From positions 1,426,001-1,490,000 of the forward strand of contig NZ_JAHUWZ010000001.1 in assembly GCF_019218755.1 (NCBI RefSeq): a DNA stretch of 64,000 nucleotides. The letters run 5' to 3'. This document shows, piece by piece, positions 53,022 to 63,282 of this stretch. The number at the start of each line of letters is the position of its first letter. Within the stretch, counting starts at the first letter, position 1. A program made the translations under genes and the position numbers. This DNA comes from Acidovorax sp. sif1233. GTDB lineage: Bacteria > Pseudomonadota > Gammaproteobacteria > Burkholderiales > Burkholderiaceae_C. Under the pieces are notes generated by a model. The model had not been told where the DNA came from. It saw only the letters and a program-made list of their open reading frames with translations, and searched no databases.

Positions 53022-54467
53022 CTACCAAGGCAGCGTGAACGTCTTGCAGTTGGTGAACGATTTGATCGCCTCCTGCACCCCTTCCTTGTAGCCCAGACCG
53101 GAGTCCTTGATGCCACCGAACGGGGTCAGCTCGATGCGGTAGCCCGGCACCTCCCAGAGGTTCACGGTACCGACCTGCAGTTCCTTGGCAAAGCGGGTCA
53201 CGTCGTCCAGGCGGTTGGTGCAGATGCCCGACGACAGGCCGAAGGCCGTGCCGTTGGAGATGCGGATCGCCTCGTCGATGTTGCGAAAGGTCAGGATGGG
53301 CGAAACGGGGCCGAAGGTCTCCTCGCGCACCACGGTCATCTCCGGGCGCACCCGGTCCAGCACCGTGGGGGAATACAGCGCGCCCTCGCGCACATTGCCC
53401 GCCAGCAGGCGCGCGCCCTGGGCGATGGCCTCGGTCACCACCTTCTCGAAGTGGCGGGCCGCGGCCTCATCGATCACCGTGCCCATCTCGTTGGCCTTGT
53501 CCATCGGGTCGCCATGGCGCCATGCCTTCGTCTTGGCCACCACGCGCTCGGTGAACTCGGCCGCCACCTTCTCATGCACCAGCATGCGCTTGACCGCCGT
53601 GCAGCGCTGGCCCGAGTTCTTGTACGAGCCCTGCACCGCCAGGTCGCTGGCCTTGTCCAGGTCGGCATCGTCCATCACGATCAACGGGTCGTTGCCACCC
53701 AGCTCCAGCACCATGCGCCGGTAGCCGGCCTTCGACGCAATGTACTTGCCGATGGCCACCCCGCCGGTGAAGGTGACGAGATCCACATGGCGGTGGGTCA
53801 GCAGCTCGTCGGCGATCTCTCGCGGATCGCCGGTCACCACCTGCAGCATCTCCACGGGCAGACCGGCCTCGTACAGCAGATCGGCAAAATAGTAGGCCGA
53901 CAGGGGTACCCTCTCCGAGGGTTTGAGCACCATGCGGTTGTTGGTGGCCACGGCTGGCACCACCTTGTGCGCCACCTGGTTCATGGGGTGGTTGAAGGGC
54001 GTGATGGCCGTGATGACACCCAGCAGCGGTTCGCGCGTGGTGATCACCTTGCGTTTCTTGCCGTGCGGCGTGAGGTCGCACGAGAACACCTGCCCATCGT
54101 CGCGCAGGGCCTCGTTGGCGCCGAAGTTGAGCACGTCGGCCACACGCCCGATCTCGTAGGTGCTGTCCTTCTTGCACAGGCCCGACTCGGCGGTGATGAT
54201 GTTCGACGCCTCGTCGGTGCGCTCGCGCAGCAGCGCCGCCGCACGGTTCAGGATGGCCGAGCGCTCGTAGCGCGACAGCGTGGGCACGTAGGCATGGGCG
54301 ATGTCCATCGCCCGGCGCACGTCCTCCACGCTGGCCATGCCCACCGTGCCCACGCGCTCGCCGCTGTAGGGGTTGACGACGTCGATGTTGCGCTCCGTGC
54401 GCACCCTGGCGCCGCCGATGCGCAGGGCCTCCGCGCGGAAGTCCACGCTTTCCATGATGCAACTCAT
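53022..54467 (-). CDS. phnY: Phosphonoacetaldehyde dehydrogenase
   Basis: A 481-aa aldehyde dehydrogenase. ITPFNHPMNQVAHKVVPA is the NAD-binding region, LELGGNDPLIV holds the general-base Glu, and NSGQRCTAVKRML the catalytic Cys. Its place as last gene of the phn operon, with phosphonoacetate hydrolase, supports oxidation of phosphonoacetaldehyde to phosphonoacetate. The start at 54467 overlaps the stop of the iron alcohol dehydrogenase gene (ATGA). ATG at 54455 is an alternative. Confidence 0.9.
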   Translation of the reverse strand: MSCIMESVDFRAEALRIGGARVRTERNIDVVNPYSGERVGTVGMASVEDVRRAMDIAHAYVPTLSRYERSAILNRAAALLRERTDEASNIITAESGLCKKDSTYEIGRVADVLNFGANEALRDDGQVFSCDLTPHGKKRKVITTREPLLGVITAITPFNHPMNQVAHKVVPAVATNNRMVLKPSERVPLSAYYFADLLYEAGLPVEMLQVVTGDPREIADELLTHRHVDLVTFTGGVAIGKYIASKAGYRRMVLELGGNDPLIVMDDADLDKASDLAVQGSYKNSGQRCTAVKRMLVHEKVAAEFTERVVAKTKAWRHGDPMDKANEMGTVIDEAAARHFEKVVTEAIAQGARLLAGNVREGALYSPTVLDRVRPEMTVVREETFGPVSPILTFRNIDEAIRISNGTAFGLSSGICTNRLDDVTRFAKELQVGTVNLWEVPGYRIELTPFGGIKDSGLGYKEGVQEAIKSFTNCKTFTLPW

Positions 54468-55573
54468 GCTGCCTCCTTGATTGCTGCCGTGTTGGCTCCG
54501 ATGAAGTTCTTGCCGCGTGCGCCGGTCAGCGCATGGGCCACCATCTGCTGCGCCTGGGCGTCGCTCACGCCGTAGTCGGCAAAGCGCGTCTTCACGCCCA
54601 GTTCCTCGATGAAGCGGGCCAGCAGGGCCGGCGCGCCGGCCAGGTTTCCCAGCGCGCTTTCCAGCACGGCGTCGCGCTCCGGGTTCTGGCCAATGGCGCG
54701 CTCCAGCACCATGGGCAGCGGAAAGCTGCAGGCAATGCCGTGCGGCAGCCCGTAGCGCAGCGTCATCTCGTAGGAGATCGAGTGCGCCAGCGCCGTGCGC
54801 GTGTTCGAGAAGGCCATGCCGGCCTTCAGGGCCGCCAGGGCCATGCGGCCGCGCAGCGTCGCGTCGTCCAGGTGTTCCATCAGCTGCGGCAGAGCCTCCA
54901 GGATCTCATGCACCGCCGCCACCGCGAAGGTATCGGACACAGGGTTGGCATTCACGTTCCAGATCGACTCCAGCGCGTGCGACAGCGCGTCCAGCCCGCT
55001 TTGCAGCGTGACCGAGGCGGGCAGCGACAGCATGAGCTCGGGGTCGATCAGCGCGATGCTGGGCCAGGTCTCGGGCAGGTGCAGCGAGTACTTCTTCTGC
55101 GCGCCGCGGTCCCATACCGTGGCCCAGGGCGTCACCTCGCTGCCGGTACCGGCCGTCGTCGGCACGGCGATGAGCGTCTTGGTCCGCGCTGGCGTGAAGG
55201 CCTTGCCGGACGCCAGCAGCGCCACCAGCTCGGAGAAACGCCCGCTGGGCGTGGCCACCATCAGCGCCTTGGCGGTATCGATGGCACTGCCACCGCCCAC
55301 CGCAATGATCACCTCGGCACTGGCGGCCTCGCCGGACCAGAAGGCGTCGTAGACCGCCGCAAGCTCCGCGACATCCGGGTTGGGCCGCACATCGTCGATC
55401 ACGCCGGCCAGCTGCTCGCCCAGCAGGCCCTCGATGCGGGCCACGAGGCCCAGCTGGCGGGCCTCCGGAAAGGTGACCAGCAGTGCCCGCCGGCCATCCA
55501 GCAGCTTTGGCAGGGACAACAGTTCCCCTGCCCCGTAGACACTGCGTACGGGGTTCAAGTATTCATGTGGCAT
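54464..55573 (-). CDS. Phosphonate-linked iron-containing alcohol dehydrogenase
   Basis: A 369-aa group III (Fe/Zn) alcohol dehydrogenase. GGGSAIDTAKAL binds NAD(P), VPTTAGTGSEVTPWATV is the family signature, and metal ligands lie in GLDALSHALE and GLPHGIACSF. It sits between phnA and phnY and matches the phosphonate-associated Fe-ADH type. The most economical role is oxidation of 2-hydroxyethylphosphonate to phosphonoacetaldehyde, the substrate of PhnY. That role is inferred from the operon. The gene starts 10 bp after the phnA stop. Confidence 0.88.
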   Translation of the reverse strand: MPHEYLNPVRSVYGAGELLSLPKLLDGRRALLVTFPEARQLGLVARIEGLLGEQLAGVIDDVRPNPDVAELAAVYDAFWSGEAASAEVIIAVGGGSAIDTAKALMVATPSGRFSELVALLASGKAFTPARTKTLIAVPTTAGTGSEVTPWATVWDRGAQKKYSLHLPETWPSIALIDPELMLSLPASVTLQSGLDALSHALESIWNVNANPVSDTFAVAAVHEILEALPQLMEHLDDATLRGRMALAALKAGMAFSNTRTALAHSISYEMTLRYGLPHGIACSFPLPMVLERAIGQNPERDAVLESALGNLAGAPALLARFIEELGVKTRFADYGVSDAQAQQMVAHALTGARGKNFIGANTAAIKEAA

Positions 55574-55583
55574 GGAAAGACCT

Positions 55584-58457
<2,874 letters not shown>

Positions 58458-58461
<4 letters not shown>

Positions 58462-59333
58462 TTCATGGCCCTCAGGTCGAGGTTCAGGATCTTGGCCGTC
58501 TCGCGGATGATGTCGTAGGCCTTGTCGTTCGTGGGATGAAAGCCGTTGAGCATGCCCTGGTCCGACCAGGGGATGTCCTTCACGTCCAGGAAGGCGGCCT
58601 GCACGCGCCTCTTGAGGTCCGCATCCAGGTCCTTGCGCCAGACGGTGGGCGACTCGGGGATCGGGTCCGACTTCCACACCACCACCAGGTCCTCGCGCTT
58701 GGCCAGGCCCTTGGCGATGGCGGCATCGAGGATGCGGTCGGCAATCGCCACGGCCTCGATCTTCTTGTTCTGCACCGCCACGGCATTCGAGTCGTGCGAG
58801 CCGGAGAAGATCACGCGGCCGAAATCCTTGTCGGTGTTGAAGCCTTCCTTCATCAGCCCGGCCTTGGGGAACAGGTGGCCCGAGGTGGACGTCGGGTCCA
58901 CGAAGGCGAAGGTCTTGCCCTTGAGGTCGGCCACGGTCTTGATGCCGCTGTCCTTGTGGGCCACGATGAGGGAGTGGTAGAAGGCCCGGCCGGCCTTCTT
59001 GGTCTCGGCCACGGCAAAGGCCTCGATGGGCGCCACGGTGGTGCCCATCACGTACGAGAAGGGGCCGAGGTAGGCAACATCCAGCCGCTTGGAACGCAGG
59101 GCCTCGATCACGCCGTTGTAGTCCGCCGCCACGAAGGGCTTGACCGGCATGCCCAGCGACTTGGACAGCATGTCCATCATGGCCTGGCTGTTGGCGATCA
59201 TGGCCCGCGAATCCTCGGAAGGGATCAGGCCTACCGTGAGGACGTTGGCAGCCCTGGCAGGGTTGAGGCCGGCAAGCGGCGGGGTTAGCAGCACGGATGC
59301 GCTGGCCAACAGAGATCGGCGCGTGAGTTTCAT
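58458..59333 (-). CDS. phnD: Phosphonate ABC transporter substrate-binding protein PhnD
   Basis: A 291-aa periplasmic receptor. The N-terminal MKLTRRSLLASASVLL is a signal peptide with a twin arginine, ending about NPARA. The binding core includes VAYLGPFSYV, TFAFVDPTSTSGHLFPKAGL (phosphonate-binding Ser/Thr loop) and SGSHDSNAVAVQNKKI. First gene of the operon phnD-C-E-A-ADH-phnY and divergent from the LysR gene. Confidence 0.94.
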
Positions 59334-59498
59334 CGATGTCTCCTGTCTGGTGGGTTTGAACCTCTTTTTGCACTGCCTACCAAGCACAGTGCATGGGGCA
59401 ACTGTCGGTGGTGCGGGACTATCTTGCAAATTCAAGTTTTTTTACCGATCCATTCATTTAATCTATAGTTGGCCCGGGATAACACGGAGGCGACTGTC
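59334..59498. promoter_or_regulatory. Divergent control region of the phosphonate operon
   Basis: These 165 bp lie between phnD and the LysR gene. A strikingly AT-rich core (about 59420-59470, with a run of seven T and TTTAATCTATAG) should contain both promoters and the LysR binding site. I could not fix individual -35/-10 boxes with confidence. Confidence 0.55.
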
Positions 59499-61861: not shown

Positions 61862-62590
61862 TCAGGCACGGGGTCCATGGGGTCGAAATTCCACCGTGGC
61901 TCCCAGCGCCTGCAAGTGGTCTTGGGAGCGGCGCAGGTGCACAAGATAGCCCTCCGCAACGGCAATTTCGGGTTGCATCGCCAGGGCCAGCGCTTCTTGT
62001 GGCGACAAGCCAAACGTCTGCTTGAGGAATTGCACGACCTTCATTTTCTGCGGACCGATGCCGCAGATGACCAGGGTGCCGTGCTGCCAGGCCGTGGTAT
62101 CGGGCGGGAACGCAGGTTCCTTTGCCGTGTCCGCGCGGTTCTGGCGGTTCTCGAGCACCTCCCGCCAGAGCCGGGTTCCCAGGCTGGCCTCGGCTTCGAC
62201 CACGTGTTGTGCAGCCGTGGCGTCGTCTTCCAGCCCGCGCAGCACCGCCAGCATGTCACCCAATTGCTGCAGACTGGGTGCGGCCTGCTCCGCCTCCCAC
62301 CGCCCCGCTCCATGCGGCGCATAGTAGACGGGAAAGCCTTTCGCCTCCTGGTTGAGATCGATGAAGAACGGATCGCCGAACCCATTGAGAGCGACCACGT
62401 ACCAGCCCGGCTGCCATTCGCCCGGTGCGGTGCCGACCAGGCTTTCGCCGGTGATGCCGTGGTGGCGAAAGCCGCTTTGCCAACCCTCCCATTGCCCGGG
62501 CTGGGGGTAGTGGAAAGGCAAGGCCATGTCGCCCGCGACGATGGCGGCTTCGATGAACTGGCGTGCCGCGTCCGGCAAGATGGATGTCAT
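61862..62590 (-). CDS. SUKH (SMI1/KNR4)-like protein with L7/L12-like C terminus
   Basis: A 242-aa soluble protein. Residues about 1-130 resemble SMI1/KNR4 (SUKH) proteins, with GWYVVALNGFGDPFFIDLNQE as the diagnostic strand-turn. Residues about 172-238 (LVICGIGPQKMKVVQFLKQTFGLSPQEALALAM...LQALGATVEF) follow the alternation of the ribosomal L7/L12 C-terminal domain. SUKH proteins are often immunity proteins to polymorphic toxins, but no toxin gene is seen here. Stand-alone gene. Confidence 0.75.
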   Translation of the reverse strand: MTSILPDAARQFIEAAIVAGDMALPFHYPQPGQWEGWQSGFRHHGITGESLVGTAPGEWQPGWYVVALNGFGDPFFIDLNQEAKGFPVYYAPHGAGRWEAEQAAPSLQQLGDMLAVLRGLEDDATAAQHVVEAEASLGTRLWREVLENRQNRADTAKEPAFPPDTTAWQHGTLVICGIGPQKMKVVQFLKQTFGLSPQEALALAMQPEIAVAEGYLVHLRRSQDHLQALGATVEFRPHGPRA

Positions 62591-62781: not shown

Positions 62782-63282
62782 ATGCAGAATAATGTACCGA
62801 TCTACTTCTTGCGCTCTGCGAACGCCATGACGGTTGCCTTTGCATTGCATCACCCGGAGGGCCTGCACATCGCGTGCGGGCTGCAAGAGGCAGTCCTGGT
62901 GGACCGTCATGCGGCACTGATCGTGGTGCCGCGCGTACCCCGGGCGGTGCAGGGTTCGGACTGGACCTGGCATCGTCTCAAGGCCTGGAGTGACGGCGGT
63001 TTCATGGTGGGCATCGAGCTGGCGTTCTTCCAAGGTTCCTTGTCCGAATGCTGGCTCTTCCACGATGACGACAGCCGCTATGGCAGGGATTGGAGCGATT
63101 GGTCCGAACGCAAGGAGCGTCGGCGCGCCAAGGCTTTGCGCGACTGGCTGGGCGCGCGGGGCTGGGCTTCTGGGCACCATGCCTGGGGCGAGGTTTGGGT
63201 GGGGTACGACCCGCGCACCGGCTTTGGGTGTGGCGGGGTGCGCTACGGCAGCGCAGATTCGCCCGCGGCCATGCGGGTGTGA
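62782..63282 (+). CDS. Hypothetical protein
   Basis: A 166-aa soluble protein, not recognised. It is Trp-rich (DWTWHRLKAWSDGG, DWSDWSERKERRRAKALRDWLGARGWASGHHAWGEVWVGYD) with a charged middle. An in-frame ATG at 62830 is an alternative start. Divergent from the SUKH-like gene by 191 bp. The plus-strand reading is preferred over the long opposite-strand frame because its composition is protein-like. Confidence 0.6.
   Translation: MQNNVPIYFLRSANAMTVAFALHHPEGLHIACGLQEAVLVDRHAALIVVPRVPRAVQGSDWTWHRLKAWSDGGFMVGIELAFFQGSLSECWLFHDDDSRYGRDWSDWSERKERRRAKALRDWLGARGWASGHHAWGEVWVGYDPRTGFGCGGVRYGSADSPAAMRV

Follow-up and report, generated by a model that had tools for sequence, protein, structure and literature searches.

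One gene in the stretch of Acidovorax sp. sif1233 DNA that was analysed (the window, 64,000 nucleotides) encodes a protein of 242 aa that combines a predicted SUKH domain with a relative of the L7/L12 C-terminal domain. We consider this protein, here called SUKH-L12, to be an orphan (poly)immunity protein whose second binding module derives from L12, a reading to which we assign a probability of roughly one half. We infer that the SUKH half would bind a toxin sent by a rival cell, most probably an HNH/WHH-type nuclease, and block it. The L7/L12 C-terminal domain, attached through a flexible stretch of acidic linker, would have been taken over as a separate second module for binding, and it would most likely offer a further toxin-binding or target-binding surface and not act as a working ribosome-stalk domain. 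An earlier note, made from the letters of the sequence, had proposed the combination of the two domains, and this observation was confirmed, well above chance.

The open reading frame is intact and runs from ATG to stop at 61862-62590 on the minus strand. It belongs to a family of 17 full-length members, which were placed in one alignment with each species counted once. The SUKH domain covers about residues 1-126 (62213-62590, minus strand) and was delimited by the AlphaFold model, by VIA-align and by a Pfam match to SMI1_KNR4 below the cut-off. It is followed by a helical and low-confidence acidic linker (residues 127-168; 62087-62212, minus strand), which was defined by the helices and pLDDT values of the model and by conservation. 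The L7/L12 C-terminal-domain-like module (residues 169-237; 61880-62086, minus strand) is supported by hhalign, by a structural match to 1ctf and by a profile that retrieves rplL in whole genomes. In the AlphaFold2 model the linker has helices at 124-134 and 140-155 and a pLDDT below 50 at 157-159, and residues 121-156 are the least conserved stretch of the protein in the family alignment. The model of the whole protein has a mean pLDDT of 88.6, with tail blocks at 88-97, and a pTM of 0.62, so that the placement of the two halves relative to each other is uncertain.

When the window protein was scanned as a single sequence with Pfam, SMI1_KNR4 (E=0.0038; 18.2 bits vs a cut-off of 25.4) and Ribosomal_L12 (E=0.16) both stayed below the cut-off. 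Scanned in the same way, 12 of the 17 full-length members matched Ribosomal_L12 (best 3.1e-7), and 12 of 17 matched SMI1_KNR4 at E<=0.1 (best 1.6e-4). The window protein had no match to defence-system, PHROG or NCBIfam models; the NCBIfam L12 model found the L070 member with E 5.1e-5, below its cut-off. A search of the window protein against solved structures by sequence alone gave one chance match and nothing else, and the DNA repeats around the gene were short chance-like pairs only.

The front half, when modelled alone with AlphaFold, reached a pLDDT of 89.4 and a pTM of 0.87. VIA-align, which was run on a Foldseek candidate list, gave RhsPI as the best match (8bd1_B, Z 7.5, 106 residues), followed by YobK (Z 6.5), five entries of Knr4 (Z 5.4-5.3) and Syd (Z 4.8). 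After these top eight rows the scores dropped to 3.9 (an uncharacterised Salmonella protein) and 3.2. All Z-scores of this half are below 8 and not strong alone, and Foldseek returned no significant E-value for it. YobK, Knr4 and Syd are, as we take it, members of the SUKH superfamily; the top eight structural rows then all belong to this superfamily, and for that reason the N-terminal half was read as a SUKH domain. The SUKH-type domain of the earlier note is thus borne out by these matches together with the Pfam matches in the family.

RhsPI is the immunity protein of a WHH toxin, which argues for the immunity reading. SUKH-L12 shares its fold with the SUKH immunity proteins RhsPI and YobK and the dual-SUKH protein I2 of Bacteroidales, the last as described in PMC12247911. 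It differs from all of these in carrying an L12 C-terminal domain, in having no recognised cognate toxin adjoining it and in matching SMI1_KNR4 only weakly. According to that paper, effectors are neutralised by direct binding of SUKH immunity proteins, and orphan SUKH genes have been shown to protect gut Bacteroidales (PMC12247911).

For the tail, a profile was built from 16 family tails, with no rplL included, and searched against 91 loci. All 20 rplL proteins were retrieved, with E-values between 4e-10 and 7e-6, and at E<=0.1 not one of the 14 ClpS loci was. The real rplL sequences (n=20) scored 26.5-40.2 bits, as against 8.7 at most among 1000 shuffles of L12. In hhalign, the tail family matched 20 rplL tails with 95.0% over 71 columns (P 9.9e-9), while the controls gave 0.04% (ClpS), 0.06% (reversed L12) and 0.16% (the family's own SUKH half). 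A profile of 18 rows, two of which were diverged tails, was used to scan 299 whole genomes and matched 260 of them. Among the matches listed were six SUKH-L12-type proteins and the rplL of the Acidovorax genome itself; nearly all others listed were frames of about 124-150 aa, which is the length of rplL.

The modelled structure agrees with these comparisons. The tail model superimposes on the C-terminal domain of E. coli L7/L12 (1ctf) with Z 10.0 and an rmsd of 1.7 Å over 67 residues, and L7 was the top rank in Foldseek (E 3.8e-3). Its predicted elements follow the order strand-helix-helix-strand-helix-strand (E170-177, H182-193, H197-204, E209-215, H216-228, E232-237), the same beta-alpha-alpha-beta-alpha-beta pattern that had been noted before. 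A C-terminal structure unrelated to L7/L12 was the outcome named beforehand as speaking against this identity, and the fold comparison came out as L7/L12. We therefore hold residues 169-237 to be a true relative of the L7/L12 C-terminal domain. The next fold match was ClpS of M. smegmatis (Z 8.4, rmsd 3.9, 75 residues), and the fold common to L12 and ClpS would allow the tail to be a ClpS-like adaptor that passes bound toxin to a Clp protease. The profile results given above rule out a ClpS identity of the tail and make such an adaptor highly improbable.

Compared with bL12, the tail has the same C-terminal domain fold, belongs to the same sequence family and sits on an acidic, poorly ordered linker, as the real L12 C-terminal domain sits on its hinge. 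The protein, however, lacks the N-terminal dimerisation and L10-binding domain, in place of which it has the SUKH domain, and a separate authentic rplL is present in the same genome (G000:C22:211016-211216). L12 residues K65, K70, R73 and K84 presumably are the positions that contact EF-Tu and EF-G. In the alignment, position 65 is K or R in 17/17 members and position 73 in 10/17, but K is found at position 70 in only 2/17 and at position 84 in none of the 17, so that the factor-binding set is not retained as a whole. The hydrophobic positions 66, 68 and 69 are kept, and a basic residue that is new relative to L12 stands at position 67 in 17/17 members. From the retention of K65 and part of R73, the loss of K70 and K84 and the new basic residue, the tail may be a domain whose ligand has changed, and we read it as a second toxin-binding or target-binding module.

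These residues also bear on a translation-docked role, in which the tail would still bind EF-Tu, EF-G, IF2 or RF3 and so place the SUKH half at the translation machinery, where this half would either act as a shield against a toxin or trap toxins that work there. The L12 homology, the conserved part of the contact face and the binding of the L7/L12 C-terminal domain to helix D of EF-Tu, reported in PMC5770553, argue for it. The tail may dock on translation GTPases, but this is made less probable by the loss of K70 and K84 and the only partial retention of R73. Moreover, the new basic residue at 67 and the missing N-terminal domain for attachment to the stalk speak against it, and no translation factor genes were seen beside SUKH-L12 at the copies inspected. 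We thus regard both the recruitment to translation factors and the protection there as unlikely. The translation-linked protection suggested earlier from a SUKH domain with an L12 tail stands as to its two domains; for the link, the contact face is only partly kept, and no translation-factor neighbours were seen at the copies inspected.

The preferred reading, an L12-derived binding module, also has to be weighed against a scaffold role, in which the L12-like domain would let the SUKH protein oligomerise or would hold it in a larger complex. Such a role has been suggested for L12/ClpS domain insertions in vWA conflict-system proteins of bacteroidetes, where the domain is termed multimerizing (PMC7159879). 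These proteins resemble SUKH-L12 in that an L12-type domain is reused in a conflict protein; they differ in the host protein and in their restriction, in that text, to bacteroidetes. L12 domains are reused elsewhere too, with tandem copies in putatively exported proteins. On the other hand, the L12-like domain is unrepeated in the SUKH-L12 family, and the dimerisation of L12 resides in its N-terminal module (PMC5770553), so that we find a scaffold quite improbable.

The tandem copies occur in long frames at L101 and L104 (G069 and G175; also G1517), each with two L12-CTD-like domains. The C-terminal motif VPEPSTAALxGLALLGxLRR suggests by eye an exported protein of PEP-CTERM type, which would place an L12 domain outside the cytoplasm.

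The spread of the fusion is wide but sporadic across distant taxa. Matches were found in 11 of 250 genomes sampled from the same family, 4 of them full length with the Acidovorax genome included, at genus level in 2 of 47 genomes, which belong to one species, and in 1 of 369 genomes of a class sample, again that genome. Full-length members were also found in Pseudomonas MRCP1333, Leminorella, Superficieibacter and Chitinophaga; for this set, 90 candidate stretches yielded 5 confirmed loci, one of which has no tail. Seven of 298 Pseudomonas genomes carry full-length members, 3 of 195 Chitinophaga-family genomes carry the fusion (a further match is SUKH-only), and among Enterobacterales 6 of 345 genomes matched, with only Leminorella full length. 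E. coli gave no DNA match to the Superficieibacter gene. Spread by phages or plasmids was considered and rejected: there was no phage record, no copy was confirmed in viral contigs, and a Phyllobacterium plasmid is the sole plasmid with the complete fusion. This plasmid copy is annotated as "ribosomal protein L7/L12", which should serve as a warning in annotation work.

The fusion is stable. Pairwise identities of the two domains correlate (Mantel r 0.73, a value reached in 0 of 5000 permutations), with a mean of 57% for the SUKH half and 43% for the tail. The gene is under purifying selection: between the window copy and L003, the SUKH part has dN 0.13 and dS 0.53 (dN/dS ~0.25) and the tail dN 0.16 and dS 0.91 (dN/dS ~0.17). 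A SUKH half this strongly conserved does not give the picture of a fast arms race. In the tree, neither Pseudomonas nor the home family forms a single group, a topology that would agree with horizontal transfer, though good support was obtained for only 4 of the 14 inner branches.

Two genomes encode a further SUKH-like protein that has diverged and bears a related tail of L12-like type (L006:1174-1968 and L009:1231-1977; G079 and G215). In hhalign these tails gave 87.7% to the SUKH-L12 family and 31.7% to L12. Two adjacent genes of a Spirochaetes MAG (L017:4867-6462) have the same SUKH type behind a different N-terminal part, without an L12 tail.

The immunity role is supported indirectly by a third domain and by the neighbouring genes. 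Pfam finds a C-terminal DUF7716 in 3/17 members, namely L013, L014 and L015 (E 5.6e-13, 5.2e-14 and 4.1e-9), and the sole further Pfam family among the 17 members is one stray match. A protein of this domain family is the immunity protein of an S. Tennessee T6SS DNase and protects against this HNH enzyme (PMC13224477); it is stand-alone with 103 aa, and the window copy has no DUF7716. Polyimmunity proteins join SUKH to unrelated immunity domains, and their operons usually contain no toxins (Zhang et al. 2012, PMC3482391). L013, L014 and L015 resemble them with SUKH and DUF7716, and thus at least two immunity domains, on a single chain and with no toxins recognised beside them. In the first 300,000 of the 357,715 characters of that text the terms "L12" and "ClpS" do not occur, and its passages on fused domains list no L12-type module. 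The window copy would be a polyimmunity protein only if the L12-like module is itself an immunity domain.

SUKH genes also lie nearby. A SUKH_6/SUKH-1 gene (330 aa, E 5e-18; L025:11106-12098) of the same orientation is found 1.1 kb beyond the end of the window, and G003 has a homologue of it. This SUKH_6/SUKH-1 gene adjoins a gene for a 277 aa protein, whose homologue borders the SUKH-L12 gene in L023. At L074 the lengthened fusion measures 781 aa, and a SUKH-1 gene (E 1.1e-7) comes directly after it. The surrounding cluster of this Chitinophaga-family locus (L074:1106-11918) looks polyimmunity-like, with several proteins that share a strand-rich region by eye; SUKH alone was recognised there by Pfam. 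In L068 a gene of the DKNYY family overlaps the region just upstream and the start of the SUKH-L12 gene. A MazE/PemK pair in L014 ends 86 bases upstream of the SUKH-L12 gene and has its own antitoxin.

The earlier note had further proposed a search for genomes in which the gene adjoins a toxin. With gene calls and Pfam on selected neighbours, no polymorphic toxin was recognised beside any SUKH-L12 copy, and a search for RHS repeats in the Acidovorax genome found none at E<=0.001. The neighbourhood gene calls in GC-rich loci came from a custom procedure and include shadow ORFs; an antisense frame was picked in L021 by one caller, and in L069 the SUKH-L12 gene was missed by the caller and its frame was taken from other results. 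The missing toxin fits both polyimmunity genes and orphan SUKH genes, but immunity is not thereby proven, and it counts against the immunity reading along with the lack of DUF7716 in the window copy. Some SUKH proteins, yeast Knr4 among them, are not known to confer immunity, and the domain exists outside immunity. Together with the purifying selection, these points would suit a housekeeping or regulatory SUKH protein. Given the sporadic spread in distant taxa, the DUF7716 fusion and the SUKH or immunity-like neighbours, we think this improbable and prefer an orphan (poly)immunity protein.

Immunity proteins have mostly been recognised by folds found beside toxins. That the stalk domain recurs in a SUKH protein, and in some copies precedes a domain for which an immunity function has been proven, points to the cell's own translation machinery as a source of modules for immunity or docking. 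A tentative, rather unlikely extension would be a three-headed immunity protein (SUKH, L12 tail and, in some members, DUF7716) that covers nuclease and translation toxins, with the tail as a stalk mimic that intercepts toxins at the contact of EF-Tu or EF-G with L12. If true, a ribosomal protein would here have supplied an immunity domain. We found no description of the fusion in the literature, in a search that covered few subscription papers and in which "L7/L12" was unsearchable with the slash.

Upstream of SUKH-L12, a divergently transcribed gene for 151 aa (62827-63282, plus strand; start codon picked by eye from the conserved region) falls into a homology cluster. It is conserved beside SUKH-L12 in L021 and L013, and it is shared with G003 and Pseudomonas MRCP1333. 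Its product had no Pfam, PADLOC or PHROG match, and no relatives were found in plasmids. Elsewhere in the window, the minus strand at 53022-59435 holds what by eye appears to be a cluster for phosphonate uptake and breakdown, with genes for an aldehyde dehydrogenase, an iron-type alcohol dehydrogenase, a phosphonoacetate-hydrolase-like protein and a PhnE/PhnC/PhnD-like transporter.
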